Assembly: GCF_014646075.1 (NCBI RefSeq)
Contig: NZ_BMMT01000002.1
Span: 434,001 to 498,000 of the forward strand
Direction: 5' to 3'
Source of the DNA: Saccharopolyspora thermophila
Lineage (GTDB): Bacteria > Actinomycetota > Actinomycetes > Mycobacteriales > Pseudonocardiaceae
DNA length: 64,000 bases
Positions 4,501 through 45,924 of the stretch are shown here, piece after piece; within the stretch, counting starts at the first letter, position 1, and every line of letters begins with the position of its first letter. A model generated the notes under the pieces. That model worked only from the letters and a program-made list of their open reading frames with translations. It was not told the origin of the DNA and did no database searches. The position numbers were made by a program, and so were the translations under genes.

Positions 4501-6104
4501 GTGGATCGCCAGGACCCGGCACTCCACGCCGGGGGTCGGCCTGATCTCGCCGCCGCCGCACCACGACATCTACTCGATCGAGGACCTGGCGCAGCTGATC
4601 CACGACCTGAAGAACGCCAACGAACACGCCCGGATCCACGTCAAGCTGGTGTCCGAGGTCGGCGTCGGCACGGTCGCGGCCGGGGTGGCCAAGGCGCACG
4701 CGGATGTCGTGCTGATCTCCGGCCACGACGGCGGCACCGGTGCCGCGCCGCTGACCTCGCTGAAGCACGCGGGCACACCGTGGGAGGTCGGACTCGCCGA
4801 GACGCAGCAGACGCTGCTGCTCAACGGGCTGCGCGACCGCATCACGGTGCAGGTCGACGGCGGGTTCAAGACCGGCCGCGACGTGATCGTCGCCGCGCTG
4901 CTGGGCGCGGAGGAGTACGGCTTCGCCACCGCGCCGCTGGTGGTCGAGGGCTGCGTGATGATGCGCGTCTGCCACCTCGACACCTGCCCGGTCGGCGTCG
5001 CGACCCAGAACCCGGAGCTGCGCAAGCGCTACACCGGCAAGGCCGAGCACGTCGTGAACTTCTTCGAGTTCGTCGCGCAGGAGGTCCGCGAGTACCTGGC
5101 GCAGCTGGGCTTCCGCACCCTGGACGAGGCGATCGGCCAGGTCTCGGCGCTGCGCACGGACGAGGCCATCGAGCACTGGAAGGCCCGCGGCCTGGATCTG
5201 TCCCCGGTGTTCGCCGAGCCGGAGACGCCGTACTCGTCGGTGCGGCGCCGGGTCCGCGAGCAGGACCACGGCCTGGAACACGCGCTGGACCGCACGCTGA
5301 TCCAGCTCGCCGAGGCGGCGTTGGAGGACGCCCGCCCGGTGCGGCTGCAGCTGCCGGTGCGCAACGTCAACCGCACCGTCGGCACCCTGCTGGGCGCCGA
5401 GGTCAGCCGCCGCTACGGCGGGGAGGGCCTGCCGCCGGACACCATCCACGTGGAGCTGGAGGGCTCGGCCGGGCAGTCGCTGGGCGCGTTCCTGCCGCCC
5501 GGTATCACGCTGGACCTCATCGGTGACGCCAACGACTACGTCGGCAAGGGCCTGTCCGGCGGCCGGATCGTGGTCCGCCCGCACCCGGACTCGGTGTTCG
5601 CCGCCGAGGACCAGGTGATCGCGGGCAACGTGATCGGCTACGGCGCCACCAGCGGGGAGATCTTCCTGCGCGGCAAGGTCGGCGAGCGGTTCTGCGTGCG
5701 CAACTCCGGGGCCGTCGCGGTCGCCGAGGGCGCCGGGGACCACGCCTTCGAGTACATGACCGGCGGCCGGGCGGTGGTGCTGGGCAGCACCGGCCGCAAC
5801 GTCGGCGCCGGCATGTCCGGCGGCATCGCCTACGTGCTGAACCTGGACCCGGTGCGGGTGAACACCGCGATGGTGGACCTGCAGCGGCCCAGCGCCAAGG
5901 AACTGAAGTGGCTGCACGAGATCGTGCAGCGGCACCACGAACTGACCGGTTCGGCGGTGGCGGCCTCGCTGCTCGGCGACTGGCCGCGGCGCTCCGCGGC
6001 GTTCACCAAGGTGATGCCGCGCGACTACCAGCGCGTCCTGGAAGCGATGCGGATGGCCAAGGTCGAGGGCCGAGACGTGGACGAGGCGATCATGGAGGCT
6101 TCCC

Positions 6105-6112
<8 letters not shown>
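1562..6112 (+). CDS. gltB: Glutamate synthase (NADPH) large subunit
   Basis: Ferredoxin-type/NADPH GOGAT alpha subunit, 1516 residues from the GTG at 1562, chosen because GAGGGAGG lies just upstream; a longer frame from 1517 has no ribosome site. The N-terminal Ntn glutaminase domain begins at Cys22 ([11 protein letters not shown]) after a short propeptide that would be cleaved off. A central domain is followed by the FMN-binding synthase domain (about 800-1180), with the [3Fe-4S] cysteines C1131, C1137 and C1142 in [12 protein letters not shown]. The C-terminal part (about 1230-1480) is the GXGXG beta-helix domain. It transfers the amide nitrogen of glutamine to 2-oxoglutarate. Its stop overlaps the gltD start by 8 bases, so the two subunits are translationally coupled. 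Confidence 0.97.
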
Positions 6113-7610
<1,498 letters not shown>

Positions 7611-7626
7611 TTTCCCGCGGTGCAGG

Positions 7627-7736
7627 GCCGCGGATCAGCCGGGATAGCTCAGCCGTAGGGCACCGATGGCGATGGTCCTGAGTCCTACCAAGGGAATCAG
7701 GACCATCGCCGTTGCCATCACGTGACGATCCGCGGC
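7627..7736. repeat. Nested inverted repeats; probable terminator of gltBD
   Basis: The inner arms GGCGATGGTCCTGA (7668-7681) and TCAGGACCATCGCC (7697-7710) pair perfectly over 14 bp around a 15-base loop. The outer arms GCCGCGGATC (7627-7636) and GATCCGCGGC (7727-7736) pair perfectly over 10 bp around the whole element. No T-run follows on either strand. It lies between convergent gltD and the helicase gene, so a bidirectional terminator is the simplest reading. Confidence 0.7.
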
Positions 7737-7805
7737 GCAGCCACCAACCGGCGGCTTTGGGGTGAACCGGTGTTCCATCCCAGATCACCACGCCGCGGAC
7801 GGGGG

Positions 7806-10097: not shown

Positions 10098-10203
10098 CTT
10101 TTTTGGCTGGGGATCAGGGAAGAAGCCCGACTCGGGCCCGACCCGCCAATATACCGCCCGCGGCGGGGCGGTCGCAGGGCCGCGGAGCCGGGCTCCCGGT
10201 TGC

Positions 10204-10689
10204 TCAGGCGGCGAGCAGGGTTTGGTGCGCTCTGCGCAGCAGCATCGCCATGCCCCTGCGGTGCCACGTCGACATCGGTGACCAGATCCGGGCCGCGAAG
10301 GCGTTGTGGTATCTGACGATCGTCGCAGCTGACACCTTCTCGTCTGCGACGCGGACGACGAGGTGGACCGCCAGTGACCAGGAGGTGGCTTCGATCCGCA
10401 GCCACCGGTCGCCGCGACCGCCGATCTTCCAGCCGCTCAGGTGGTCTGGTGACGGCCGCCGGTCCAGGCGCAGCTGCAGGAGCCCGCGGAAGATCAGGCG
10501 CGCCAGCGGGCCGGCGAAGGTCTTCTCGAACGCGGCGCGCGCCCATTCCTCGGCCGTGTGGTCGGCGACGCCGGTCGCCGCCAGCGTGAAGAAGTCGGTG
10601 TAGTGGGGATCGGTGATCGTGCTGAGCGCGCGGATCTCCCCGGGCACGACCTGGTGTTCGTGGATGGTCGGCACGGAATCGGACTGCAT
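10204..10689 (-). CDS. DUF2867-like protein
   Basis: 161 residues from the ATG at 10689. The sequence has the pattern of DUF2867/SRPBCC-like small proteins: an N-terminal region around IRALSTITDPHYTDFFTL, a GWKIGGRGDRWLRIEATSW core strand and a conserved WSPMSTWHRRGMAMLL C-terminus. No signal peptide or membrane segment is visible. Function is unknown; related proteins resemble ligand-binding START folds. A longer frame upstream is open but runs through unrelated sequence. It stands alone on the minus strand and directly abuts a truncated TetR-like coding remnant on the other strand. Confidence 0.72.
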   Translation of the reverse strand: MQSDSVPTIHEHQVVPGEIRALSTITDPHYTDFFTLAATGVADHTAEEWARAAFEKTFAGPLARLIFRGLLQLRLDRRPSPDHLSGWKIGGRGDRWLRIEATSWSLAVHLVVRVADEKVSAATIVRYHNAFAARIWSPMSTWHRRGMAMLLRRAHQTLLAA

Positions 10690-10695
10690 GTCCCT

Positions 10696-10823
10696 GTCTC
10701 TACCTCGGTGCCCTGGAAGGGCTTGGGAGCTTCCTCGCGGGGCACGCCCCGCACGACGTCGAGCTCGCCGAGCAGGCGATCCGCGGCGTGCTGGGGCTAC
10801 CACCGGTTTCCAGGTTTGCCTGA
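10696..10823 (+). pseudogene. C-terminal remnant of a TetR-family regulator (tentative)
   Basis: A plus-strand frame ending in TGA at 10821 encodes LYLGALEGLGSFLAG followed by HDVELAEQAIRGVLGL, which resembles the last helices of TetR-type ligand domains. No start codon, DNA-binding domain or upstream continuation exists; the frame runs back into the start of the DUF2867-like gene. It looks like the tail of a deleted regulator. The match is judged by eye only. Confidence 0.4.
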
Positions 10824-10869
10824 GTCTGGGTGCTCGTCGTGAGCGCCGGCCGCCACCCACGACCGCTGG

Positions 10870-12270
10870 TCACAGCACCGTCGACAGGCCCAGGATCACC
10901 GCGAACGAGACGACCGACAGCAGCGTCTCCATCACCGACCAGGTCCTGAGGGTCTGCCCGACGGTCATCCCGAAGTACTCCTTGACCAGCCAGAACCCGG
11001 CGTCGTTGACGTGCGAGAGGAACAGCGAGCCGGAGCCGATGGCCAGCGCCACCAGCGCACCCTGCGCCGGCGGCATCCCGGTCACCAGCGGCGCGACCAT
11101 CCCGGCCGCCGAGATGGTGGCCACCGTCGCGGAACCGGTGGCCACCCGGATACCCACCGCGATCAGCCAGCCGAGCACCAGCGGCGACAGGTGCGCCCCG
11201 CTCGCCACGTCGGTGATCATGGTGTTCACCCCGGAGTCGACCAGGGTCTGCTTGAACCCGCCACCGGCGCCGACGATGAGGATGATCCCGGCGATGGCGG
11301 GCAGCGATCCGCCGATCACGTCGGACAGCCGGTCGCGGCCGAACCGGGCGCCGCCGCCGAGCACCACGATGGCGATCAGCACGGTCAGCATCAGGGCGAC
11401 CACCGGGGTGCCGACGGTGTCGAGCACCCGGTAGCCGGCGCTGTCCTCCGGCAGCGTCAGGTCGGCGAGGGACTTGCCCAGCATCAGCACCACCGGCAGC
11501 AGCAGCATCGCCACCGACGCGACGAAACCGGGGCGCCTCTCCGGCGCAACCTGCTCCGGGGTCGTGCCCAGCAGGTGGGTGGCCGGGGGCAGGTCGACGC
11601 GGCGCGCGATGTGGGAGCCGAACAGCGGGCCGGCGACGATCGCGGTCGGGATGGCCACCACGACGCCCAGCGCGAGGGTGAGGCCGAGGTCCACGTGCAG
11701 TGCGTCGACGGCCGCGAGCGGGCCGGGGTGTGGCGGGACCAAACCGTGCAGGATCGACAGCCCGGCCAGCGCGGGGATGCCGATGCGCAGCATCGGCTGC
11801 TGGGACCGACTGGCCACCATGACCACCACCGGGACCAGCAGGACCACACCGACCTCGAAGAACATCGGCAGGCCCAGCAGCGCGGCGATGAACACCATCG
11901 CCCACGGCAGCGTCCGGCGGGTGGTGCGGCGTAGCACCGTCTCCACGATCTGCCCGGCGCCGCCGGTGTCGGTGAGCAGCTTGCCGAGCATCGCGCCGAG
12001 CGCGACGAGCAGGCCGACATCGCCGACAGTCTTGCCGAGGCCCTTGGTGAAGGTCTCCACGAGGTCCCCGAACGGCATGCCGGCGACGACGCCGAGTGTG
12101 GCGGCGCCCAGAGCCAGGGAGAGGAAGGGGTGCAGCTTCGCCCAGCTGATCAGCACGACGATGACCGCGATGCCCGCGACGGCCGCCACCAGCAGCCGGG
12201 TGTCGTGCGCGGTCCAGGTGCCCGCCTCGGTCGAGGCGCCGGCGAGGCTGCCGAAAAGGCTGTGCGACAT
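10870..12270 (-). CDS. gntP: Gluconate:H+ symporter, GntP family
   Basis: 466 residues with about twelve hydrophobic segments and no signal peptide. Conserved GntP features include ALGAMLGKLLTDTGGAG, LHGLVPPHPGPLAAVDALH and GSGSLFLSHVNDAGFWLVKEYFG. The start at ATG 12270 is preceded by GAGGAG; an in-frame extension to 12339 lacks a ribosome site and would cover the operator. The family imports gluconate or related sugar acids with protons. It is divergent from a FadR-type GntR regulator, which very likely controls it through the palindrome between them. No gluconate kinase gene lies alongside. Confidence 0.92.
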   Translation of the reverse strand: MSHSLFGSLAGASTEAGTWTAHDTRLLVAAVAGIAVIVVLISWAKLHPFLSLALGAATLGVVAGMPFGDLVETFTKGLGKTVGDVGLLVALGAMLGKLLTDTGGAGQIVETVLRRTTRRTLPWAMVFIAALLGLPMFFEVGVVLLVPVVVMVASRSQQPMLRIGIPALAGLSILHGLVPPHPGPLAAVDALHVDLGLTLALGVVVAIPTAIVAGPLFGSHIARRVDLPPATHLLGTTPEQVAPERRPGFVASVAMLLLPVVLMLGKSLADLTLPEDSAGYRVLDTVGTPVVALMLTVLIAIVVLGGGARFGRDRLSDVIGGSLPAIAGIILIVGAGGGFKQTLVDSGVNTMITDVASGAHLSPLVLGWLIAVGIRVATGSATVATISAAGMVAPLVTGMPPAQGALVALAIGSGSLFLSHVNDAGFWLVKEYFGMTVGQTLRTWSVMETLLSVVSFAVILGLSTVL

Positions 12271-12305
12271 GGGGGTTGGCTCCTCGTTGAGCAGCTGGTG
12301 CCGGC

Positions 12306-12357
12306 ACAGCCTACGCAATAAGTATGACTTTATTGCCATATTGACCGATTAAGTATG
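12306..12357. promoter_or_regulatory. Operator between gntP and its GntR regulator
   Basis: An AT-rich patch in GC-rich DNA. GCAATAA (12315-12321) and TTATTGC (12330-12336) form a perfect 7-bp inverted repeat with an 8-base spacer. TAAGTATG occurs twice, at 12319-12326 and 12350-12357, 31 bp apart (about three helical turns). The minus-strand hexamer TAGGCT (12311-12306) could be the gntP -10, which would place the palindrome over that promoter. Confidence 0.65.
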
Positions 12358-12494
12358 TCTGTTACGCGCATCACCCGTCTGTGGTGGCTTAGAGTGCGCA
12401 CGGATCGGAGCCGGGACGAATGCGACGCGGTGTTGTTGCCAGCCGCTGCCACGACGCCCCGCACCGCGAAGCGACGAGCGTCGGAGGGGATCGG

Positions 12495-13196
12495 ATGGGC
12501 GGCGGACTGCACGACAGGGTGCTGGACGTGCTCGGCCACGAGATCGCCGCCGGCGCGCACCCGCCGGGCAGCGTGCTGCGCATCGACGAGATGGAGCAGC
12601 GTTTCGGGATCTCCCGCAGCGTGGCCCGCGAGGTGGTGCGCAGCCTGGCGTCGATCCGGCTGGTGGTGGGCCGCAAGCGGGTCGGCATCGTGGTCCGGCC
12701 GCGCGCCGACTGGAACACCTTCGACCCGCTGCTGATCCGCTGGCTACTGGCCGCCGACCGCACCGCGCAGCTGAAGACACTGGCCGAGCTGCGCACCGCC
12801 GTCGAACCGGTGGCGGCCGGAGCCGCGGCGCAGCGGGCCACCGACGCCGACGCCGCGCGGCTGGTCGAGCTCGCCGAGCGGATGGTGGCCACCGCCCGTG
12901 CCGGCGACCTGGACACGTTCATGGACGCCGACGTCGCCTTCCACCGCCTGGTGCTGACCGCTTCCGGCAACGAGATGTTCGCGCAGCTGCACGAGGTCGT
13001 CGAGGAACTGCTGCGGTGGCGGGCCGGGCACGGCCTGATGCCGGTGCACCCGCGCCCGGTCGCCGTGCGGCTGCACTGCGAGATCGCGGAGTGCATCCGC
13101 AGCGGTGACCGGGCGCGGGCGGAGGAGGCGATGCGCGAACTGGTCGCCGAGGCGCTGGAGGGCACGCTGTCCGAGCTGGCCGCGACGCACCGGTGA
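12495..13196 (+). CDS. GntR-family regulator, FadR/FCD subfamily
   Basis: 233 residues from ATG 12495, which has GGAGGGG upstream; an earlier in-frame start at 12420 has none. The N-terminal winged helix (about 5-70) contains PPGSVLRIDEMEQRFGISR and SVAREVVRSLASIRLV. The C-terminal all-helical FCD domain (about 85-220) carries the metal/ligand-type residues in DVAFHRLVLTASGN and the late HCEIAECI segment. It is divergent from the gluconate permease with a palindromic operator between, so it is most likely the local repressor, with gluconate or a derivative releasing it. A TAGAGT hexamer at 12390-12395 may be its -10. Confidence 0.9.
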   Translation: MGGGLHDRVLDVLGHEIAAGAHPPGSVLRIDEMEQRFGISRSVAREVVRSLASIRLVVGRKRVGIVVRPRADWNTFDPLLIRWLLAADRTAQLKTLAELRTAVEPVAAGAAAQRATDADAARLVELAERMVATARAGDLDTFMDADVAFHRLVLTASGNEMFAQLHEVVEELLRWRAGHGLMPVHPRPVAVRLHCEIAECIRSGDRARAEEAMRELVAEALEGTLSELAATHR

Positions 13197-32618: not shown

Positions 32619-33815
32619 ATGGGCAGCGCGTACGTGGTCGGGACGTTCGACACCAAGGGCACCGAACTGCGCTACGTCGCCGGACTCCTGGCGCGCGGGC
32701 ACTCCGTGGTCACCGTGGACCTGTCCACCAGCGGTGCCGCCTCCGATGCCGACGTTCCGGCTGCGGCGGTCGCCGCGCATCACCCGGACGGGGCCGAAGC
32801 GGTGTTCACCGGTGAGCGCGGCACGGCTGTGGCGTCGATGGCCGCGGCGTTCGAGCGGTTCGTGGTGGGCCGGGACATCGACGGCATCATCGGCCTCGGC
32901 GGCTCGGGTGGCACGGCGCTGATCGCACCGGCGATGCGCGCCCTGCCGATCGGCGTGCCCAAGATCCTGGTGTCCACTGTGGCTTCCGGCGACGTCTCGC
33001 CCTATGTGGACGCAACGGACATCGCGATGTTCCCGTCCGTCACCGACGTGGCCGGACTGAACCACATCTCCCGCCGCGTGCTGGGCAACGCCGCGCACGC
33101 GCTGCTGGGCGCACTGACCCACCCCGTGCCGCCGCACGAGGGCAAACCGGCCGTCGCGCTCACCATGTTCGGGGTCACCACACCATGCGTGACCGCGGTG
33201 GCCCGGGAACTGGCCGCCGACCACGACCCGCTGGTGTTCCACGCGACCGGCACCGGCGGCCGGGCCATGGAGAAACTCGTCGACGACGGCCTGGTGTGCG
33301 CGGTGCTGGACATCAGCACCACCGAGGTGTGCGACCTGATCGCCGGGGGAGTGATGAGCGCGGGCGAGCAGCGGCTGGACGCCATCGCCCGCACCCGTGT
33401 GCCCTACGTCGGCTCCTGCGGAGCCCTCGACATGGTGAACTTCGGCGCGCTGGACACGGTTCCGGCCCGGTACCGGAACCGCACCCTGCACGTGCACAAC
33501 CCGCAGGTGACGTTGATGCGCACCACCGCCGACGAGTGCCGCCGGATCGGGGAGTTCATCGCCGCCAAGCTCAACGCCTGCCATGGACCGGTGCGGTTCC
33601 TGCTGCCGGAGGGCGGGGTGTCCATGTTGGACGCTCCGGGGCAGCCGTTCCACGACCCCGGGGCCGACGCGGTGCTGTTCGACACGATCGAGGAGCGGTT
33701 GCAGCAGACCACCGACCGCCGGCTGCGGCGGTTGCCGCACCACATCAACGATCCCGAGTTCGCCGCGGCACTCGTCGCGGCCTTCCGCGACATCGCTTTC
33801 CAGGAGGCACGATGA
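32619..33815 (+). CDS. Tm-1-like ATP-binding protein (UPF0261)
   Basis: 398 residues from ATG 32619 with GGAGG upstream and a TAGAGT -10 at 32576-32581. The N-terminal part ([40 protein letters not shown]) and the C-terminal part ([20 protein letters not shown]) match the Tm-1-like N-terminal domain known from the tomato ToMV resistance protein and its bacterial relatives, an ATP-binding fold. The stop overlaps the next start (ATGA). The partner gene encodes the TIM-barrel half, so the two are a split version of the plant protein. Bacterial function is unknown. Confidence 0.88.
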
Positions 33816-34642
33816 GCCGATTCGACCGCGCCGAGCTGATGCGGCGGTTGCGCGCCAAGGTGGCGCGCGGCGAGCCGATCGTCGGCGGCGGGGCGGGCAC
33901 CGGGCTGTCGGCGAAGTGCGAGGAAGCCGGCGGCATCGATGTGATCGTCATCTACAACTCGGGCCGCTACCGGATGGCCGGGCGCGGGTCGCTGGCCGGG
34001 CTGCTGGCCTACGGCAACGCCAACGAGATCGTGCTGGAGATGGCCCGCGAGGTGCTGCCGGTGGTGCGGCACACCCCGGTGCTGGCCGGGGTCAACGGCA
34101 CCGACCCGTTCCTGCTGCGCGACCGGTTCCTGGCCGAGCTGCGCGACCTCGGCTTCGCCGGCATCCAGAACTTCCCGACCGTCGGGCTCATCGACGGCGT
34201 CTTCCGGGCCAACCTGGAGGAGACCGGCATGGGCTACGGGCTGGAGGTGGAGCTGGTCGCCGCCGCGCACGAGGCCGACCTGCTCACCACGCCGTACGTG
34301 TTCTCCAGCGACGACGCGCGGGCGATGACCGAGGCGGGCGCGGACATCGTCGTCTGCCACCTGGGGTTGACCACCGGCGGTGCGATCGGCGCCCAGACGG
34401 CCAGGTCCCTCGACGACTGCGTGGCGCTGATCGACGAGTGGTCAGCGGCGGCGACCGAGGTGCGCGAGGACGTGCTGGTGCTCTGCCACGGCGGGCCGAT
34501 CTCGATGCCGGAGGACGCGGCCTACGTGCTGTCGCGGACCAAGCGCTGCCACGGCTTCTACGGGGCCAGCAGCATGGAGCGGCTGCCCACCGAGCGGGCG
34601 CTGACCGAGCAGACCCGGGCGTTTCGGAACCTGACGAAGTGA
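33812..34642 (+). CDS. PEP-hydrolase-like TIM-barrel protein (Tm-1 C-terminal type)
   Basis: 276 residues from ATG 33812, overlapping the previous stop by 4 bases. The sequence has the family run [76 protein letters not shown] and a late [18 protein letters not shown] segment. Related proteins are annotated as phosphoenolpyruvate hydrolase family or TIM-barrel signal proteins; the activity is not proven. Translational coupling to the Tm-1-like protein suggests the two act together. Confidence 0.87.
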
Positions 34643-34658
34643 GCTGGTGGAGGTAGCG

Positions 34659-35129
34659 GTGGCGAAGTCCTACGCGAGCGCGGTGATCGAGGCCCCGGCC
34701 GAGCAGGTGTGGCAGGTAGTGCGCGACTTCGACGGACTGCCGAGGTGGCATCCGGCGATCACCGCCAGCGAGATCGAGGACGGCGCGGCGGCCGACACGG
34801 TGGGCTGCGTCCGGCACCTGACGTTGGCCGACGGCGGGGTGGTCCGCGAGCAGCTGGTGTCGCTGGACGACGCCGACCGCAGCTACACCTACGACATCGT
34901 CGAGAGCCCGTTTCCGGTGCGCAGCTACCGCGCCACCATTCGCGTGCGCCCGATCACCGACACCGGACACAGCTTCGTGGAGTGGTACGCGCACTACGAC
35001 GCGGACGCGGCCGACGAGGACCAACTCGACCGGACGTTCGCCACGGACGTCTATCGGACCGGGTTGACCGCCCTGCGCAACCACCTCCGCAACCCGAACA
35101 CGGGCGTGTGGGGTGTTGGTGACGCGTGA
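34659..35129 (+). CDS. SRPBCC-family (polyketide cyclase/START-like) protein
   Basis: 156 residues from GTG 34659, which has GGTGGAGG upstream; GTG 34647 is in frame but overlaps that ribosome site. Pattern: SAVIEAPAEQVWQVVRDFDG, LPRWHPAITASEIEDG, VGCVRHLTLADGGVVREQLV and HSFVEWYAHYDADAAD. The fold binds small hydrophobic ligands. It starts 17 bases after the PEP-hydrolase-like gene, so a three-gene operon is likely. Ligand unknown. Confidence 0.85.
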   Translation: MAKSYASAVIEAPAEQVWQVVRDFDGLPRWHPAITASEIEDGAAADTVGCVRHLTLADGGVVREQLVSLDDADRSYTYDIVESPFPVRSYRATIRVRPITDTGHSFVEWYAHYDADAADEDQLDRTFATDVYRTGLTALRNHLRNPNTGVWGVGDA

Positions 35130-35258: not shown

Positions 35259-36215
35259 GTGCCAAGCAGCGTCACCCACCCCGCCGCGGACACCGCCCAG
35301 GCCGACCGGGTCGTCGTCACCGGAGGATCCGGTTTCGTCGGCCGAGCCGTGGTGCGCGCCTTCCTGGAGCGCGGCACCCCGGTCACCGTCGTCGACCTGC
35401 ACGAGCCACCCGCCGAGCTGCGTCACGAGCTGCTGACCCACGTGCCCGGCGACCTGCGAAACGCCGCGGTGCGCGACGCAGCGGTGCCGGAGGGCGCCGC
35501 CGGGATCATCCACCTGGCCGCGATCACCTCCGTGCTGCGCTCGGTGGACCGGCCCGTCGAGACCTACGCCAACAATGTCGAGGTCACCCAGGAACTGCTG
35601 GAACTGGCCCGGCAGCGCGGGGTCGGCCGCTTCGTGCTGGCCTCCACCAACGCCGTCGTCGGCGACATCGGCCACGGCACGATCACCGAGACGCTGCCGC
35701 TGCGCCCGCTCACGCCCTACGGCGCCACCAAGGCCGCCTGCGAGATGCTGCTGTCCGGCTACGCGGGGGCCTACGGCATGGCGACCTGCGCGCTGCGCTT
35801 CACCAACATCTACGGCCCGGGCATGGGCCACAAGGACAGCTTCATCCCCCGCCTGATGCGGGCCGCGCTGGCGAACACCGGCGTCGAGGTGTACGGCGAC
35901 GGGGCCCAGCGCCGCGACTTCGTGCACCTCAACGACGTCGTGCAGGGCGTGCTCGCCGCGTGGGACAAGCAGTACACCGGCACGGCGATCATCGGCTCCG
36001 GCCGGTCCATCACGGTGCTGGAGCTCATCGACGCGGTCCGCGCCGCCACCGGCGAGCCGCTGCCGGTCACCCACGTGCCCGCCAAGAACGGCGAGATGCC
36101 CGCGGTGATCGTGGACATCACCAGGGCGCAGCGGGAGCTCGGCTACGCACCGGACGTCGAACTGACCGACGGGCTGCGCACCGTCTGGGCGGACTTCCGC
36201 CGCGGGATGCCATGA
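35259..36215 (+). CDS. NAD-dependent nucleotide-sugar epimerase/dehydratase
   Basis: 318 residues. An extended SDR with VVVTGGSGFVGRAVVRAFLE (NAD site, about 20-39), the HLAAITSVLRSVDRP segment, and the active-site YGATK; RFTNIYGPGM and YGDGAQRRDFVHLNDVV are typical of UDP-glucose 4-epimerase-like enzymes. The GTG 35259 has no ribosome site but a TAGAGT hexamer at 35246-35251 ends eight bases before it, so a leaderless start is likely. Its stop overlaps the next gene's ATG by 4 bases, tying it to the membrane glycosyltransferase and hence to glycan assembly. Substrate unknown. Confidence 0.9.
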   Translation: MPSSVTHPAADTAQADRVVVTGGSGFVGRAVVRAFLERGTPVTVVDLHEPPAELRHELLTHVPGDLRNAAVRDAAVPEGAAGIIHLAAITSVLRSVDRPVETYANNVEVTQELLELARQRGVGRFVLASTNAVVGDIGHGTITETLPLRPLTPYGATKAACEMLLSGYAGAYGMATCALRFTNIYGPGMGHKDSFIPRLMRAALANTGVEVYGDGAQRRDFVHLNDVVQGVLAAWDKQYTGTAIIGSGRSITVLELIDAVRAATGEPLPVTHVPAKNGEMPAVIVDITRAQRELGYAPDVELTDGLRTVWADFRRGMP

Positions 36216-38482
36216 CGGGAGCGCTCGCGCGGGTCCTGCGGCGGCACTGGCTGCTGGCGCTGCTCGTGCTGGCCGGCCTGGCCCTGCGGGTCGTGGTGCA
36301 GCTGGCCTACCGGCCCGCGCTGCTCTACATCGACTCGTTCCGCTACCTCGACGACGTCGGGGCGTTCTTCCCGGGCGGCCTCAACCCGGTCGGCTACGAG
36401 GTCTTCCTGTGGCCGCTGCTGGCCGTCGGCAACCTGACCCTGGTGGTCGCCGTGCAGCACCTGCTCGGTCTCGGCCTGGGGGTGGGCAGCTACGCGCTGC
36501 TGCAGCGGCTGGGTGTGCGGTCCTGGATCGCCGCGGTGGCCGCGGCCCCGGTGCTGCTGGACGCCTACCAGCTGCAGATCGAGCACAACATCATGTCGGA
36601 CCTGCTGTTCCAGGTCCTGCTGCTGGCCGCGATCGGGGTGCTGACGTGGTGGGGCCCGCCCGGCCCGAAACTCGCCGCGCTGGCCGGGGTGGTGCTGGCC
36701 GCCGCCGTGGTGGTGCGCCTCGTCGGCGTCACCCTGGTCATCCCGGCCGCGTTGTTCGTGCTGCTGGCCGCCGGGCGGCGACCGCGCGACGGCTGGCGGC
36801 GACGGCTGGTCGCCACCGCGGCGCTCGGCGGCGCGTTCGTCGCGGGCGTGTTCGGCTACGCGCTGTACCACCTGGCCTGCACCGGAGCGCTGGGCATCGG
36901 CGGTTCCCACGGCGGGGCGCTCTACGGGCGGGCCGCGGTGGTCGCCGACTGCGAACACCTCGACCTCACCCCCGAGGAGCGGCTGGTCTGCCCGGCCGAG
37001 CCGTTCGAGCAGCGCCAGCGCAACGGCATCGACTTCTACATCCACTTCTGGCACGTCCACGACAACGTCGAGCAGTTCCTGCCGGAGGACATGGACGTCG
37101 CCACCGCGCAGGGCTCGTTCACCCGTAAGGTGCTGCTGCACCAGCCGCTGGACATGGTCGGCGGGATGGTCGAGGACTTCGGCAAGGGGTTCGCCCCCAC
37201 CCGCACCCAGACGCCCGGCGACGTGCCGCTGGATCGCTGGCAGTTCCAGGTCCGGTACCCGATGTACGCGCCGGACTGGTACGTCACCGAGTGGGCCGAG
37301 CTCTACGACGACGGGCAGCTGTCGGTCGATTCGGACCTGGCCGGGTTCCTGCGCGCCTACCAGCTCGGCGGCGGTTACACGCCCGGCACCGCGCTGGGCG
37401 GCGCGCTCCTCCTCGCCGCGCTGGCCGTGCTCGGCGTGGGCCGGGCGCGCCGTTCCGGGCTGCGCGCGGTCTGCCTGCTCCCGGCGGGCCTGGCGACGAC
37501 CGTGCTGGCCACCGCGGCCGCCATGGAGTTCTCGTGGCGCTACCAGCTGCCCGGTCTGCTGCTGATCCCACTCGCCGGGGCGCTCGGTGTCACGGCGCTG
37601 ACCGGCCACCGCCGCCCCGAATCACCGGCCCCGACCGTATTGCACAAGGAGAGTCAGATGCCCAGCTTCCCCGACGAGGTCGACCAGGCAGCGCTGGAGG
37701 ACTACGCCGCGCGCTGCGGCGACCACCGGTTCGCGCCGGTGGTCGTGCTGATCGCCGCCTACAACGAGGAGGAGTCGCTCGGCGAGGTGCTGGACTCGAT
37801 TCCGGCCCGCTGCTGCGACCTGGACGTCGACAAGCTCGTGGTGGTCGACGGCGCCACCGACCGCACCGCCGAGGTCGCGATCAAGCACGGTGCCTGGACC
37901 TGCGTCGCGCCGACCAACCGCGGGCAGGGCGCGGCGCTGCGGCTCGGCTACCGGCTGGCGGCCGAGCGCGGCGCGCGCTACGTCATCACCACCGACGCGG
38001 ACGGCCAGTACGACATCACCGAGCTGCCGATGCTGCTGCGCCCGCTTCTCGACGGCCGCGCCGACTTCGTCACCGGCTCGCGGCGGCTGGGCAGCAACGA
38101 GCGTCCCGCGCTGATCCGCCGAATCGGCACCCACGTGTTCGCCTGGCTGGTCAGCGCGCTGACCGGGCAGCGCATCACCGACACGTCCTTCGGGTTCCGC
38201 GGGATGCGCGTCGAGGTGCCGAACTCGGTGACCCTGGAGCAGCCGCAGTACCAGTCCTCGGAGCTGCTGGTCGGCGTGCTCAGCCACGGCTACCGGGTGC
38301 TGGAGCAGCCGATGCGGATGCGGCCGCGCGTCGCCGGGCGGAGCAAGAAGGGCAACGACCTGCTCTACGGCTACCGCTACGCGCGGGTCGTGCTGGGCAC
38401 CTGGTGGCGGGAGCGCCGCACCCGCCACACCGCGGGCGAGCAGGAGCGGGTCAGCGAGCCCGCTGCGGTGGGCGAGCGGTGA
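36212..38482 (+). CDS. Membrane glycosyltransferase (GT-C-like) fused to polyprenyl-phosphate GT2
   Basis: One open frame of 756 residues from ATG 36212. Residues 1-482 are a polytopic membrane protein with about nine to ten helices and a large extracytoplasmic region (about 240-390); the first loop LLYIDSFRYLDDVG is acidic, as in GT-C enzymes that use lipid-linked sugars. Residues 483-756 are a cytosolic GT2 domain like dolichyl/undecaprenyl-phosphate hexosyltransferases: VVLIAAYNEEESLGEVLDSI, VVVDGATDRTAEVAIKHGA, the DADGQYD metal motif, and DTSFGFRGMRVE. No stop codon separates the parts, yet AAGGAG sits eight bases before the internal ATG 37658, so a separate 274-residue GT2 could also be made. 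Overlaps the convergent GtrA gene by 32 bases. Confidence 0.85.
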   Translation: MTGALARVLRRHWLLALLVLAGLALRVVVQLAYRPALLYIDSFRYLDDVGAFFPGGLNPVGYEVFLWPLLAVGNLTLVVAVQHLLGLGLGVGSYALLQRLGVRSWIAAVAAAPVLLDAYQLQIEHNIMSDLLFQVLLLAAIGVLTWWGPPGPKLAALAGVVLAAAVVVRLVGVTLVIPAALFVLLAAGRRPRDGWRRRLVATAALGGAFVAGVFGYALYHLACTGALGIGGSHGGALYGRAAVVADCEHLDLTPEERLVCPAEPFEQRQRNGIDFYIHFWHVHDNVEQFLPEDMDVATAQGSFTRKVLLHQPLDMVGGMVEDFGKGFAPTRTQTPGDVPLDRWQFQVRYPMYAPDWYVTEWAELYDDGQLSVDSDLAGFLRAYQLGGGYTPGTALGGALLLAALAVLGVGRARRSGLRAVCLLPAGLATTVLATAAAMEFSWRYQLPGLLLIPLAGALGVTALTGHRRPESPAPTVLHKESQMPSFPDEVDQAALEDYAARCGDHRFAPVVVLIAAYNEEESLGEVLDSIPARCCDLDVDKLVVVDGATDRTAEVAIKHGAWTCVAPTNRGQGAALRLGYRLAAERGARYVITTDADGQYDITELPMLLRPLLDGRADFVTGSRRLGSNERPALIRRIGTHVFAWLVSALTGQRITDTSFGFRGMRVEVPNSVTLEQPQYQSSELLVGVLSHGYRVLEQPMRMRPRVAGRSKKGNDLLYGYRYARVVLGTWWRERRTRHTAGEQERVSEPAAVGER

Positions 38483-38912
38483 ACACCAACCGGTCCACCA
38501 GCACGAACTTGACCACGAACATCACCGCGTAGGTGCCCACGAAGGCGCCCCACACGACGGCGACCTGGCCGGGCCGGGACTGCGGGAACAGCACGTGCGC
38601 CAGCGACTCGGCGTGGTGCGTGGCCAGCGCGGCCAGCAGTGCGGTGCCCACCGAGATCACCGCGTAGCGCACGATCTCGCCGCGCAGCGCCTCCCGGCCG
38701 CCCCCACCCCAGGTGCGCCGGTTGAGGGTGAAGTTCGGGACGGCCCCACCCAGCCAGGCCAGCACCGTGGCCACCACCGGCGCCGCACCCAACGAGTAGG
38801 ACAGCAGGAAAACGAGCTGGCTGATGCCGGTCGCCACGACCGAGGCCGCGGCGAAGCGGCTCAGCAACCGCCAGTACCGTCGTGCGGCGGGGCGCTCGGC
38901 GGTCTGCGCCAC
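38451..38912 (-). CDS. GtrA-family membrane protein
   Basis: 153 residues from GTG 38912, which follows AGAGGAG; a longer frame to 39023 lacks a ribosome site. Four hydrophobic helices and the GtrA pattern LSRFAAASVVATGISQLVF, NFTLNRRTWGG and VVKFVLVDRLVF. GtrA proteins are thought to help move undecaprenyl-phosphate-linked sugars across the membrane, working with a GT2 of the type encoded opposite and a membrane transferase. Its 3' end overlaps the GT2-encoding frame by 32 bases on the other strand. Confidence 0.88.
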   Translation of the reverse strand: MAQTAERPAARRYWRLLSRFAAASVVATGISQLVFLLSYSLGAAPVVATVLAWLGGAVPNFTLNRRTWGGGGREALRGEIVRYAVISVGTALLAALATHHAESLAHVLFPQSRPGQVAVVWGAFVGTYAVMFVVKFVLVDRLVFTARPPQRAR

Positions 38913-39037
38913 GGTGGCTCCTCTCGGGCGGGCGGTTGCTCCGGTGGCACCATACCCAGTCGGCATTCCCAGCTGATTCCCAGCTTGAGCCGGGAAACGG
39001 GCAGCCCTTCGGGCGAAGGTCACGAGATGAGAACATG

Positions 39038-39058
39038 CCCGATGTTGTATCCATCGGG
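39038..39058. promoter_or_regulatory. Palindrome upstream of the sulfoquinovose synthase gene
   Basis: CCCGATG (39038-39044) and CATCGGG (39052-39058) are perfect 7-bp arms with a 7-base spacer, 40 bases before the GTG at 39098 and within the divergent gap to gtrA. Could be an operator or a leader hairpin. Confidence 0.45.
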
Positions 39059-39061
39059 TGA

Positions 39062-40267
<1,206 letters not shown>

Positions 40268-40560
40268 CACCCCTCAGCCGTTCCGGAGGGGGCTGGCTGA
40301 CTGCGTGGCCCGGGCTGCTGCGCCAACCGGACCTACGACACGGCCGACTGGGGGCTGGAATATGCCACCCAGTCGGGGCACACTGGGCTGCACACGTTGC
40401 GGTCGCGTCCAAGGGCCGTGGTACGGGGAGCGGTGCCCCGGGCGCGGAGCAGTGGCTCCGCCTCCCGGGGCGCCTACCGTGTGTCGGGGGGCTTCCACAC
40501 GGTCTACTGAACAGTAACTCGTTCGGACGGCCGCTGCGATACGGCACGTGGGTAATTTGT
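40268..40560. other. Intergenic region downstream of the SQD1-like gene
   Basis: About 290 bases without a recognised gene; together with the structured stretch that follows it separates two convergent genes. Short GC-rich repeats are present but no clear terminator was found here. Confidence 0.35.
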
Positions 40561-40563
40561 TGC

Positions 40564-40635
40564 GGGGACCGACCTACTTCCGCGTGACGGCGCCCGTCAC
40601 CCGGTTGGCCGGTGAGCAGCGCGCGGTTGGTCCCC
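40564..40635. other. Predicted structured element / terminator region
   Basis: Outer arms GGGGACCGACC (40564-40574) and GGTTGGTCCCC (40625-40635) pair with one G-T type mismatch. Inside, GTGACGG-CGC-CCGTCAC (40584-40600) is a perfect 7-bp hairpin, and CACCCGG/CCGGTG (40598-40613) offers an alternative partner. It follows the stop of the minus-strand TauE gene and may terminate it, but the branched form is more than a simple hairpin. Confidence 0.4.
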
Positions 40636-40698
40636 GGCGAAGGCTCCCAGGTGCAGGCAAACTTGGCGGTCGGTCCCCGTCCCGAGTCGTGTGCCGCG

Positions 40699-41601
40699 TC
40701 AGTTGCGGACCGGTTCGCCGGTCTCCTCGACCTCGTCGAACTCGCGCCGCTCGGCCAGCACCACCCGGACCGTGTAGGCAATCGCGGCCACCCAGGCCAC
40801 CACGATCGCGGCGTAGATGATCGTCGACGACGGGGCGGGCAGGTCGATGTTCTTGATCAGCGTCCGGGCGTTGGTCAGCACGATCAGCCCGCCCGCGCCG
40901 ACGCCGATCAGCCGCATCGGCACGATCCGTACCAGGTACGCCGCCAGCGGCGCCGCGATGACCCCGCCGAGCAGCAGCGCGCCCACCATGGTCCAGGACA
41001 GCTCCTGGTGCGCCAGCGAGGTCAGAAAGCCCAGGCTGGCCGCGAACGCGATCAGAAACTCGCTGGTGTCGACCGAGCCGATGACCTTGCGTGGTTCCAC
41101 CTTGCCGGTGCTCAGCAGCGTCGGCGTCGCCACCGGGCCCCAGCCGCCACCACCGGTGGCGTCGACGAACCCGGCGACCAGGCCGAGCGGTGCGAGCAGC
41201 TTGGGGCTCACGCCGGTGAGCTGCCGGCGGCGCAGCGGGCGGACGGCGAACTTCAGCAGCACGTAGATCCCGAGCACCAGCAGGATCGTGGACATCCACG
41301 GCTCGGCGGCCTCGGTGGAGAGGTTGCTCAGCACGGTGGCGCCGAGGAAGGCGCCGACCGCGCCCGGCACGCCGAGGGTCAGCACCACCTTCCAGTCCAC
41401 ATTGCCGAACCGCCAGTGCGACAGGCCCGATGCCACCGACGTGCCGAGCTCCGCGAGGTGCACGGACGCCGACGCGAGCGCGGGGCTGAGCCCTGCGGTG
41501 AGCAGGATCGTCGTCGAGGTCACCCCGTAGGCCATGCCGAGGGAGCCGTCGACCAACTGCGCGACGAAACCACCGATCGCGAAGATCAGGAATGCTTGCA
41601 C
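40699..41601 (-). CDS. TauE/SafE-family sulfite exporter
   Basis: 300 residues, about eight hydrophobic helices. Family signatures: IGGFVAQLVDGSLGMAYGVT in helix 1, HLAELGTSVASGLSHWRFGN, GLVAGFVDATGGGGWGPVAT and a second-half GALLLGGVIAAPLAAYLV. The start at ATG 41601 lies about 105 bases after a short leader-peptide gene with the conserved motif of cysteine-attenuated sulfur operons, so expression probably responds to cysteine. TauE/SafE proteins export sulfite or sulfonates. Its closeness to a sulfite-consuming SQD1-type enzyme suggests linked sulfite management. Convergent with that gene. Confidence 0.9.
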   Translation of the reverse strand: MQAFLIFAIGGFVAQLVDGSLGMAYGVTSTTILLTAGLSPALASASVHLAELGTSVASGLSHWRFGNVDWKVVLTLGVPGAVGAFLGATVLSNLSTEAAEPWMSTILLVLGIYVLLKFAVRPLRRRQLTGVSPKLLAPLGLVAGFVDATGGGGWGPVATPTLLSTGKVEPRKVIGSVDTSEFLIAFAASLGFLTSLAHQELSWTMVGALLLGGVIAAPLAAYLVRIVPMRLIGVGAGGLIVLTNARTLIKNIDLPAPSSTIIYAAIVVAWVAAIAYTVRVVLAERREFDEVEETGEPVRN

Positions 41602-41706
41602 GATGTCTCCGTTAGGTGCGGGGTGCCTGGACGGGCGCGCGGCGGAACGGGCGCGAGCAGCGCCTGCCGTGATGAGAGGGAAGTCGAGCAGAGGTGGAAG
41701 CGGGGC

Positions 41707-41799
41707 CTACCGCGTGCACCGACACCCTGCGGAGGTGACGCGGCGCAGGTCTACGTGGAGGCGCTGCACCAGCAGCCGCCACTGATCACCAGGCGTCAT
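41707..41799 (-). CDS. Cysteine-type attenuator leader peptide (30 aa)
   Basis: A 30-codon frame from ATG 41799 to TAG 41707. The middle reads LLVQRLHVDLRRVTSAGC and the end RCTR, matching the actinobacterial leader peptides that precede sulfur-assimilation genes (pattern R-x-HVDL-x-RV-x-SA-x-C). In that class, slow translation at the late cysteine codons when cysteine is scarce changes downstream expression. It is 105 bases upstream of the TauE/SafE gene. No ribosome site precedes the ATG, as is common for leaderless leader peptides. Too short for routine gene finding. Confidence 0.82.
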   Translation of the reverse strand: MTPGDQWRLLVQRLHVDLRRVTSAGCRCTR

Positions 41800-44548: not shown

Positions 44549-45175
44549 CTACAAAAGGGTGATCCAGTACTCCCAGAACGCCTGCAGGACCAGGACCACG
44601 ATCACCAGATACCACACCACGAGCACCGTGCTGTGGAACCGGGCCAGCGCCGCGCCGGTGCCCGGTCGGCCACCGAGGTCGCCGCTGGTGAGATTGCGCA
44701 ACGTCGTGTACCAGAACAGCGGGATCGTCGTGGCCCACACGACCATGCAGTACGGGCACAGCGCGCCGATCGTGTAGAGGCTCTGGACCACCAGCCAGTG
44801 GATGAACAGCACGGCCAGCGTGGTCCCGGCCTGCATGCCCAGCCAGAACCAGCGCGGCGGCCGGAACCCGGCCAGCAGCGCGGCCCCGGCGGTGACGATC
44901 ACCGGGAACGCGGCCACCCCCATCAGCGGGTTGGGGAAGCCCAGCAGCGCCGCCTGCGGGGTGTCCATCACCGTGCCGCAGGACAGGATCGGGTTGATGC
45001 TGCACGTCGGCACGTAGTCCGGGTTGGCCAGCTTCTGCAGCTTCTCGACGGTCAGGGCGAACGAGGCCACCAGGCCGACGAGGCCCCCCACGACGTACAG
45101 CCAGGCCAGCCCGCGCGGCGCGGCCGGAGCCGGCTGCTCGGCCTCGGCGCGTTCGATGTCGATGCCCGTGGTCAC
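44549..45175 (-). CDS. Vitamin K epoxide reductase (VKOR) family protein
   Basis: 208 residues, four to five membrane helices. The loop cysteines C58 and C66 (TCSINPILSCG) and the active CPYC motif (C140, C143) are in place. Bacterial VKOR reoxidises the DsbA-like thiol oxidase using quinones. The start GTG 45175 overlaps the stop of the DsbA-like gene by 4 bases, so the pair is translationally coupled, the usual arrangement in actinobacteria, which lack DsbB. Confidence 0.94.
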   Translation of the reverse strand: MTTGIDIERAEAEQPAPAAPRGLAWLYVVGGLVGLVASFALTVEKLQKLANPDYVPTCSINPILSCGTVMDTPQAALLGFPNPLMGVAAFPVIVTAGAALLAGFRPPRWFWLGMQAGTTLAVLFIHWLVVQSLYTIGALCPYCMVVWATTIPLFWYTTLRNLTSGDLGGRPGTGAALARFHSTVLVVWYLVIVVLVLQAFWEYWITLL

Positions 45176-45924
45176 TTCGCGAGCTCCGCGTTCAGCTTGC
45201 CGAGGAAGTCGTCGGCCAGCTGCCGGAAGGTCTGCACGTCGTCGCCGGGCTGGTACTTCCGACCGTTGATGAACAGGCTCGGGGTGCCCCTCACCCCGGC
45301 GAGGTTGCCGTCGGCGACGTCGGCGTCGATCTTGGCGTTGACCTGCGGCGAGTTCACGTCCTGCCGGAACTTCGCCACATCCAGGCCGATCTGCTGGGCG
45401 TACTGCTCGAACAGTGCGCTGGCCTTCGCCGTGTCACTGCTGACGTTCGCGCCGTCGGGAGCCAGCGCCCAGGCTTCGTAGTTGTCGTAGAGGGCGTGGT
45501 ACATCTCCTTGTACTTGCCCTGCAGCCCGGCGGCCTCGGCGGCCTGCGCCGCCGAGCGCGCCAGCGGGTGGCCCTGCAGCGGGAAGTTGCGCGTGACGAA
45601 GGTGATCCGGCCCGCGTAGTCCTTCTCGATCTGCTTGGTCAGCGCGGTGTAGTAGCTGTGGCAGGCCGGGCACTGGTAGTCGAGGAACTCCACGACGGTG
45701 ACCTTGTTGTCCGGCGAGTCGATCAGCGCGTGGCTGTCCGGTTTGCGCAGCACCTCGGCCGGGACGGCCGGGGCGGGGGCGGCGCTGTCGCCCGAGCCAC
45801 CGCCGCGGTTGAACAACAGGATCCCGCCGATCACGACGACGGCGACGACCACCACGACGATGGTGAGCACGACGTTCACGGACAGCCCGCCACCGCGGGT
45901 CACCGGGTTCTGGTTCTTCGGCAT
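45172..45924 (-). CDS. DsbA-like thiol oxidoreductase, membrane-anchored
   Basis: 250 residues from ATG 45924. One N-terminal membrane anchor (about 17-37), a Pro/Ala linker, and a thioredoxin-fold domain with the active site CPAC (C85, C88 in FLDYQCPACHSYY) and the cis-Pro loop GVRGTPSLFING. It introduces disulfides into exported proteins and is recycled by the VKOR protein encoded next to it. Confidence 0.94.
   Translation of the reverse strand: MPKNQNPVTRGGGLSVNVVLTIVVVVVAVVVIGGILLFNRGGGSGDSAAPAPAVPAEVLRKPDSHALIDSPDNKVTVVEFLDYQCPACHSYYTALTKQIEKDYAGRITFVTRNFPLQGHPLARSAAQAAEAAGLQGKYKEMYHALYDNYEAWALAPDGANVSSDTAKASALFEQYAQQIGLDVAKFRQDVNSPQVNAKIDADVADGNLAGVRGTPSLFINGRKYQPGDDVQTFRQLADDFLGKLNAELAK

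Follow-up and report, generated by a model that had tools for sequence, protein, structure and literature searches.

A candidate sulfosugar variant of a multi-component transmembrane glycosylation system in Saccharopolyspora thermophila and related actinobacteria

Genes of the locus and their predicted products

The window, a stretch of 64,000 nucleotides from Saccharopolyspora thermophila, carries between positions 35259 and 41799 the genes and features listed below. We refer to the SDR, GT-C-GT2 and SQD1 genes together as the cassette.

35259..36215, + strand: SDR-family NDP-sugar epimerase (Pfam Epimerase, E 1.4e-55)
36212..37657, + strand: GT-C membrane glycosyltransferase part of a fusion, 482 aa (no Pfam match; fold from AlphaFold2)
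37658..38482, + strand: GT2 (GT-A) part of the fusion, polyprenyl-phosphate sugar synthase type (Pfam Glycos_transf_2), in frame with the GT-C part
38451..38912, - strand: GtrA-type small membrane protein, presumed flippase (Pfam GtrA_DPMS_TM)
39098..40267, + strand: SQD1-type UDP-sulfoquinovose synthase (phmmer match to 1qrr, catalytic residues)
40699..41601, - strand: TauE/SafE-family exporter (Pfam E 9.8e-40), judged to lie outside the cassette
41707..41799, - strand: cysteine-type leader ORF of 30 codons ahead of TauE, ending in AGCRCTR, likewise outside the cassette

Every gene named by the initial annotation was found in the window and was open. The arrangement had to be redrawn, however: the GT-C and GT2 genes are a single reading frame, and GtrA lies on the opposite strand, so that the genes do not form one operon. 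The SDR stop codon is overlapped by the start of the fusion ORF in an ATGA motif, and the GtrA ORF is convergent with the fusion ORF and overlaps the 3' end of its GT2 part. The Pfam match of GtrA (E 2.3e-9) was obtained with a longer version of the ORF that extends to 39023.

The SQD1-type protein, encoded by a single full-length copy in the genome, is 59.5% identical to Arabidopsis SQD1 and matched the structure 1qrr with a phmmer E of 3.2e-161, which bears out the earlier description of a full-length enzyme of this type. It retains H96, R101, T145, M146, G147, E148, Y149, S180, Y182 and K186 (1qrr numbering), and also contains the [ST]MG...YxxxK motif, described as the catalytic signature of UDP-sulfoquinovose synthases (PMC8987622). 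In 75 SQD1 genes linked to GT-C, the window gene included, nine of these residues were present throughout and E148 in 71. The score against NCBIfam NF041015 was 472.8 bits (next model 40.7), which is under the curated cut-off of 575, so we call the protein SQD1-type rather than a proven equivalog. Four other actinobacterial SQD1 proteins also missed this cut-off, with 312.5 to 468.4 bits. A PAPS reductase homologue (64% identical) in the genome suggests that the organism can make sulfite. SQD1 is head-to-head with a PAPS reductase gene in two loci from another genus, where CysD/CysN-like genes (names assigned by eye) are also present. A pattern search of the loci with SQD1 above 700 bits found no cysteine-type leader upstream of that gene.

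In the SDR protein, S129, T130, Y154, K158 and K192 did not vary among 83 aligned sequences, including that of the window. The nearest solved structure was MoeE5, a UDP-glucuronate 4-epimerase according to a reference title in PMC12338863. A counterpart of the anion-binding arginine of UDP-glucuronate 4-epimerases was sought, and the region contains the invariant K192 and mostly a histidine at position 191; as an anion-binding counterpart, this pair is suggestive only.

The fusion ORF (36212-38482) encodes 756 aa. Its N-terminal 482 residues had no Pfam match at E 0.001, and the remainder matched Glycos_transf_2 with E 3.2e-18. Since an in-frame ATG at 37658 follows the sequence AAGGAGA, the GT2 part could also be started on its own. 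In an alignment of 51 sequences, D41, H83, D117, E124 and R169 of the membrane part were invariant, and cysteines 247 and 260 nearly so. The AlphaFold2 model of this part had a pLDDT of 92.8. Structural comparison of the model returned, with Z from 20.9 to 11.5, entries whose titles identify them as GT-C transferases or as complexes containing one, among them PIG-U, which we take to be of GT-C type. Pmt4 (Z 20.9, rmsd 4.1 over 329) and ArnT (Z 19.1, rmsd 4.3 over 301) scored higher than the Z of about 14 that helical models commonly reach as their best with this tool. Foldseek by itself returned nothing at E 0.001 or below, and the best hit of the GT-C profile in PDB sequences had an E of 0.91. 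The Foldseek rows included CLC and other non-GT-C proteins. The prediction supports a GT-C fold for the membrane part, and the GT-C-like transferase joined to GT2 proposed earlier is thus retained, as one ORF. In a model of the whole fusion both parts were folded, with uncertain relative placement (pTM 0.66). The NCBIfam models nearest to the GT2 part were dolichyl-phosphate hexose transferase, AglJ and PpgS, all under their cut-offs, and the nearest PDB entries were ArnC-type enzymes and DPMS; by sequence, this part is predicted to be a polyprenyl-phosphate sugar synthase.

Conservation and shared inheritance of the genes

For comparison we took the best 80 of 536 stretches encoding an SQD1 relative, found by SQD1 alone, a choice that over-represents near relatives; genes in comparison loci were called with a simple caller made for this analysis. 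By tblastn, GT2 was present in 77 of these loci, the SDR in 75 (72 by clustering) and the GT-C part in 63; in 52 of the latter, GT-C and GT2 share one ORF. SQD1 lacked GT2 in three loci (L032, L038, L055), and 17 loci, including those of Nonomuraea and Streptomyces humicola, lacked this GT-C. GT2 clusters around SQD1 more than chance would have it: 75 matches were within four genes, with only one match in 374 gene positions at distances of 5-9. For 59 further SQD1 genes, the corresponding figures were 38 and 0 of 367. These 59 genes came from 45 of the 101 SQD1-bearing genomes of a phylum sample, chosen by family and contig size, and from relatives; one locus (L180) was left out because its gene call was truncated.

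Among 200 genomes of the family, with the best 8-9 first-look candidates scored in each, 76 contained both SQD1 and GT-C, 6 only SQD1, 5 only GT-C and 113 neither (Fisher p 2.5e-41). SQD1 was thus without GT-C in 6 of 82 genomes, and GT-C without SQD1 in 5 of 81. By genus the counts were 22, 2, 1 and 21 (p 1.5e-9), with both genes in 22 of the 46 genera sampled; because the genomes are related, both p values overstate independence. These frequencies bear out SQD1, GT2, GT-C and SDR as a conserved set. In one genome (G023), SQD1 and the rest of the cassette are on different contigs.

The initial annotation had held that conservation of SQD1 without glycosyltransferase neighbours would count against its reading, and on this point the findings are divided. 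When the four best first-look candidates were scored per genome of the phylum sample, this GT-C was not matched in 85 of the 101 genomes that carry SQD1. On the other side, 49 of the further SQD1 genes had no GT-C nearby, and 26 of them nevertheless had a GT2 within four genes, while 6 had an adjacent GT4. Related GT-C/GT2 pairs (L203, L204) also occur in a genome without SQD1, which indicates that the transferase family as such is not tied to sulfoquinovose.

Among 21 congeners, the same 15 carry SQD1 and the GT-C part. One Saccharopolyspora clade of six lacks SDR, GT-C-GT2 and SQD1 but has kept GtrA, which elsewhere is flanked by SDR and GT-C-GT2 on one side and SQD1 on the other. This difference is one event, and we infer that it was a joint loss. 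In two genera, SQD1 was exchanged in place for a distant homologue (44% identical), with the flanks and the rest of the cassette retained. Between L201 and L148, the flanks are 64-88%, SDR 87% and GT-C-GT2 73% identical, against 44% for SQD1, which is also turned round; L200 and L041 show a similar exchange without inversion. The SQD1 tree (115 rows, 28 near-duplicate loci named for exclusion, with a warning of long branches that meet) and the GT-C tree (65 of 90 rows, 25 near-duplicates from the same list left out) disagree at the swapped loci; all trees but one were quick searches without bootstrap. The common absence in one clade and the exchange in place bind SQD1 to the membrane transferase.

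GtrA was a usual neighbour of SQD1, in 74 of the 80 loci with a profile seeded from these loci and in 59 by tblastn. Its place as a flippase-like partner stands to that extent, but it is not dedicated to the cassette, since it stays in the six genomes where the other parts are absent; as a dedicated component it was ruled out.

TauE adjoins SQD1 in 13 of the 80 loci, all from Saccharopolyspora or Halosaccharopolyspora. It is present in all six Saccharopolyspora genomes without SQD1 and absent from 2 of the 15 with it. A simple filter detected a leader in 8 of 19 TauE loci, including four of the six without the cassette. Leaders of this type are cysteine attenuators. Sulfite control as a part of the system, proposed earlier, had to be abandoned: TauE is not co-inherited with SQD1 and, with its leader, is a separate sulfur gene independent of the cassette.

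Sulfolipid, related sugars and secondary metabolism

In the sulfolipid pathway, the partner of SQD1/SqdB is a GT4 lipid glycosyltransferase. SQD1 might accordingly feed ordinary sulfoquinovosyl diacylglycerol (SQDG) through a GT4 encoded elsewhere, with SDR and GT-C-GT2 adding another sugar as neighbours by chance or loose co-selection. A GT4 from beside SQD1 in other genomes matched six proteins of the genome at E 1e-10, none of them on the window's contig. The earlier statement that no SqdX/SQD2-type enzyme is present thus holds for the neighbourhood of this SQD1 and its contig; other contigs of the genome carry GT4 genes, of which the best is 39% identical to the SQD1-adjacent one. Both have phosphatidylglycerol glycosyltransferase as their nearest NCBIfam model, far under its cut-off. 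The layout expected for SQDG, with a GT4 next to SQD1, was seen at 6 of the 59 further genes. In some cases SQD1 is located away from the cassette, and SQDG is named in a figure legend of a study on Mycobacterium smegmatis lipids (PMC7393984). Yet the best genomic GT4 occurs in 18 of the 21 congeners, including five of the six without SQD1, and so is no dedicated SQD1 partner. GT-C, in contrast, accompanies SQD1 in 76 of the 82 SQD1-bearing genomes and shares its absence in one clade, and the locus has re-acquired a distant SQD1. We therefore regard the SQDG explanation as unlikely.

Two other readings were considered. The SQD1-type enzyme might make a related nucleotide sugar for transfer, with another C6 nucleophile or as UDP-glucose-5,6-ene without sulfite. 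The score under the NCBIfam cut-off would fit, as would the formation of UDP-glucose-5,6-ene by Agl3 when sulfite is omitted (PMC4388408). The compared active-site residues, however, are those of Arabidopsis SQD1, and both the PAPS reductase homologue and the head-to-head arrangement in another genus speak for sulfite; this reading appears quite improbable. The cassette could also serve to glycosylate secondary metabolites with a sulfosugar instead of decorating the envelope. Organisms with the cassette are prolific metabolite producers, and MoeE5 presumably belongs to moenomycin biosynthesis. Occurrence in 22 of 46 genera, flanks that differ between genera, and a polyprenyl-type GT2 with a GT-C, which speaks for extracytoplasmic acceptors, leave this explanation very little weight.

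Proposed pathway and comparison with known systems

We consider it reasonably probable that the locus encodes a sulfosugar variant of a multi-component transmembrane glycosylation system. To judge by its genes, the cassette probably makes sulfoquinovose, carries it across the membrane and decorates the cell surface. Given its identity and active site, SQD1 would convert UDP-glucose and sulfite into UDP-sulfoquinovose. The SDR, of NDP-sugar 4-epimerase type, may, as a speculation, act on UDP-sulfoquinovose itself or provide a second sugar. On the cytoplasmic side, the GT2 part would by its family load the sulfosugar onto polyprenyl phosphate, and the GtrA-type protein, which other lipid-linked sugars probably use as well, would let the product cross. 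With its predicted fold, the GT-C part might then pass the sugar to an extracytoplasmic acceptor, perhaps a protein or a glycan of the wall, and the fusion would couple making and use of the donor. The earlier proposal of a polyprenyl-linked sugar placed outside the cell is still the best mechanism, given the conserved set and the predicted GT-C fold. A wider claim seems to us possible but doubtful: in many actinobacteria, a bifunctional enzyme would load polyprenyl phosphate with sulfoquinovose on the inner side and transfer the sugar on the outer side, and secreted proteins or wall glycans would as a result bear a sulfonated sugar. Should UDP-sulfoquinovose be the substrate of the SDR, this sugar would instead be the C4 epimer, 6-sulfo-galactose.

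Sulfoquinovose is the headgroup of the photosynthetic sulfolipid; as a surface decoration, it is described so far from glycans of some archaea. We know of no earlier bacterial lipid-linked sulfosugar donor, and this one would be the first. Among the listed open-licence papers on sulfoquinovose and actinomycetes, judged by titles and abstract beginnings, the subjects were degradation, algae, marine products or lipids, and none dealt with an actinobacterial sulfoquinovose glycan. If the reading is true, sulfoquinovose would also come from Gram-positive soil bacteria that do not photosynthesize, as a strongly acidic sugar of their surface, and the sulfoquinovosidases of soil would find a substrate in bacterial glycans. 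A GT-A/GT-C enzyme in one polypeptide would allow synthesis and use of a lipid-linked sugar to be studied together, and the reading clearly predicts a feature of cell-wall chemistry in cultured genera.

The SQD1/SqdB-SqdX/SQD2 sulfolipid pathway shares the UDP-sulfoquinovose synthase, but it pairs this with a GT4 where the present locus has GT2 and GT-C. Mycobacterial PpgS, a GT2, loads polyprenyl phosphate for a GT-C partner, placing galactosamine on arabinan, and is a near NCBIfam model of the window GT2. The latter reaches only 77.9 bits against a cut-off of 370, however, and the PpgS system uses separate proteins and another sugar.

In the Sulfolobus S-layer N-glycan pathway (Agl3, Agl1), a UDP-sulfoquinovose synthase, about 40% identical to SQD1, likewise leads through a membrane glycosyltransferase to a surface glycan; the pathway is archaeal, transfer is predicted to be directly from UDP-sulfoquinovose, and the sections consulted name no GT-C-GT2 fusion (PMC4388408). 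The Actinoplanes clusters gsf and wps-1 resemble the locus as actinomycete GtrA-dependent glycosylation for which sulfur-bearing surface sugars are proposed, but there sulfotransferases add the sulfur as ester sulfate, in a possible sulfated polysaccharide, the membrane transferase is not GT-C according to the authors, and the sections consulted make no mention of SQD1 or UDP-sulfoquinovose (PMC13390465). The multi-component, or three-component, systems (Gtr, CsbB/GtcA/YfhO, GtlA/GtcA/GtlB) likewise have a polyprenyl-loading GT-A, a GtrA-type protein and a GT-C transferase. One GtrA protein, CflA, is reported to serve several donors (PMC8035078). The donors described in the sections consulted are neutral hexoses, GlcNAc and pentofuranoses, with no sulfosugar named (PMC11127046, PMC8035078). 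In contrast to these systems, the present locus has a UDP-sulfoquinovose synthase and an epimerase built in and combines GT-A with GT-C in a single polypeptide; its donor would carry a sulfonate.

Gene set, conserved active site and predicted fold

The window holds the three cassette genes, which encode an SDR epimerase, a GT-C-GT2 fusion and an SQD1-type protein, together with a GtrA gene and further neighbors:

32619-35129, upstream of the SDR gene: UPF0261, PEP-hydrolase-like and polyketide-cyclase-like genes
35259-40267: SDR epimerase, 756-residue ORF, convergent GtrA gene, SQD1-type gene
after the SQD1-type gene, opposite strand: TauE and a short leader ORF
44549-45924: VKOR-like and DsbA-like pair beside a SigB-type sigma factor (names assigned by eye)

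The 756-residue ORF is a single frame, of which residues 1-482 (the GT-C part) have no Pfam match and the remainder is assigned by Pfam to GT2. Among loci found by SQD1 similarity alone (the best 80 of 536), the GT-C part was present in 63; 52 of these carry it in one frame with GT2, and in 11 the two are separate genes. Given these counts, the fusion cannot be put down to an assembly error.

Over aligned positions, the SQD1-type protein shares 59.5% identity with Arabidopsis SQD1; it matches the solved SQD1 structure with an E value of 3.2e-161 and keeps the signature TMG...YxxxK. According to a passage in PMC4388408, Agl3 is inactivated by alanine at His95, Arg101, Met145, Tyr182 or Lys186, impaired by alanine at Ser180, Thr185, Glu147 or Tyr148, and still active as T144A. 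In our own mapping, in which Arg101 is the least certain position, the window residues matched to those tested in Agl3 are the same as in SQD1; position 185 is a serine in both. Across 75 GT-C-linked genes, nine of the ten matched active-site positions are invariant, and E148 is replaced by V in four. The window protein does not reach the NCBIfam cut-off (472.8 versus 575), which is also missed by four other actinobacterial homologues. We infer from these sequence comparisons that it is a UDP-sulfoquinovose synthase. Among the 32 GT2-linked SQD1 genes in the alignment, proline replaces R101 in 14.

An AlphaFold2 model of the GT-C part, built from 51 window and locus sequences, reached a pLDDT of 92.8 and a pTM of 0.91. 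In Foldseek the lowest E value was 7.6e-3, so no match reached 0.001, but PMT and OST chains received a probability of 1.0. VIA-align 2 matched the model to Pmt4 (Z 20.9, rmsd 4.1, 329 aligned), ArnT (Z 19.1, rmsd 4.3, 301 aligned), and chains of OST, ALG3, EmbB and AftB. Judged by titles, the top 50 rows listed were GT-C transferases or complexes containing one, counting a PIG-U row that we take to be of GT-C type, with the lowest rows in the range given by the tool as common for helical models. The catalytic acid of GT-C enzymes is expected directly after the first membrane helix. D41, invariant in 51/51 sequences, occupies this position in the prediction, as expected for a putative catalytic acid.

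Linkage and co-occurrence

In the 80 loci, tblastn detected GT2 in 77, SDR in 75 and GtrA in 59 (74 when a profile was used). GT2 matches lay 1-4 genes from SQD1, with only 1 in 374 positions at distance 5-9; this clustering was repeated around 59 further SQD1 genes (0/367 at distance 5-9). Of these 59, 10 had GT-C and 26 had GT2 but no GT-C; a GT4 adjoined 6, and the remaining 17 had none of the three. The GT-C part was found in Actinopolyspora, Amycolatopsis, Saccharomonospora, Kribbella and Pseudonocardia. It is missing from Nonomuraea and Streptomyces humicola, which do carry GT2 and SDR; a different membrane protein is present in Nonomuraea.

Among 200 Pseudonocardiaceae genomes, 76 carried both SQD1 and the GT-C part, 11 one alone (SQD1 6, GT-C 5) and 113 neither; by genus, the counts were 22 with both, 2 with SQD1 alone, 1 with GT-C alone and 21 with neither. 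In 396 Actinomycetota genomes, SQD1 was found in 101, GT-C in 19 and both in 16. These searches scored few first-look candidates per genome, and the p-values are inflated by kinship among genomes.

The fetched loci (L numbers) also showed other arrangements. A SAM methyltransferase, present in 18/80 loci (for example L029, L047, L048) and adjoining SQD1 in 16 of the 18, could possibly O-methylate the sugar. Near the further SQD1 genes, one GT2 is a DUF2304-GT2 protein (L160), and a 322-355-residue relative of the cassette GT2 adjoins SQD1 in L160, L162, L164-L167, L171-L174, L194 and L195. A GT4 gene directly adjoins SQD1 in L158 (GtrA gene next), L163, L168, L169, L193 and L145; such loci are candidate non-photosynthetic SQDG loci in actinobacteria. 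In L197 and L198 (~6000-12600; another genus of the family), an SQD1 homologue of 49-51% identity is arranged head-to-head with genes for a PAPS reductase and for CysD/CysN-like proteins (named by eye), and an HlyD-like gene and a processive-type GT2 gene follow the SQD1 homologue; the product is perhaps a sulfoquinovose polymer. In L203 and L204, from a genome (G022) without SQD1 match, GT-C homologues lie beside separate GT2 genes; this pairing of transferases thus occurs with other sugars as well.

Joint absence and SQD1 replacement

Six of the 21 Saccharopolyspora congeners lack SQD1. They keep the order TetR-ACAD-GtrA-TauE-M23-SigB, and the SDR, GT-C-GT2 and SQD1 genes, which elsewhere lie on both sides of GtrA, are absent at their locus. 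Because the six form one clade, the absence is a single event, and the same order in other genera points to loss. GtrA persists in the six as an open frame (74-79% identity, tblastn), and therefore it likely also serves further lipid-linked sugars. An excerpt of PMC8035078 presents CflA as one GtrA common to several donors.

L201 and L148 come from different genera but represent one and the same locus: both flanks are 64-88% identical, SDR 87% and GT-C-GT2 73%, but SQD1 is only 44% identical and inverted. The same swap, without inversion, distinguishes L200 from L041 and L050. L200 and L201 form a deep separate branch in the SQD1 tree; in the GT-C tree they nest with L148, L041, L050 and L056 (100% SH-aLRT). 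Since their SQD1s are 86% identical, both replacements may be one swap. Such in-place uptake of a distant same-family SQD1 is evidence for a need of its reaction at the locus.

TauE, which the initial annotation had included as sulfite control, does not belong to the cassette. It is present at only 13/80 loci and in 19 of the 21 congeners, including all six without SQD1 and missing from two with it; its leader ORF likewise occurs in genomes with and without SQD1. The upstream UPF0261 trio occurs together in 20/80 loci, each of them from the Saccharopolyspora group. It was not found in the six cassette-less genomes or in L021, which has the cassette, and we do not count it as a cassette part. 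The VKOR-like/DsbA-like pair is retained in the 22 Saccharopolyspora-group loci and in the six genomes without SQD1.

Proposed pathway and comparison with known systems

The SQD1-type enzyme would synthesize UDP-sulfoquinovose in the cytoplasm, and the GT2 part would load the sulfosugar onto polyprenyl phosphate. The GtrA-type protein would help to flip the lipid-linked sugar across the membrane, and the GT-C part would transfer it on the outer side. The solved structure closest to the SDR is MoeE5, an epimerase for a sugar with acidic C6 according to a reference title in PMC12338863. The SDR has an invariant lysine close to where such an epimerase carries its carboxylate-binding arginine. That the SDR epimerizes UDP-sulfoquinovose is a guess.

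Among the matches listed, we found no description of such a system in the open-licence literature. The cassette would work like a three-component glycosylation system, whose structural features it shares as far as computation can test them. Compared with that system, it adds the putative sulfosugar supply and the GT-A/GT-C fusion; these, and a GT-C part without Pfam match, are new here.
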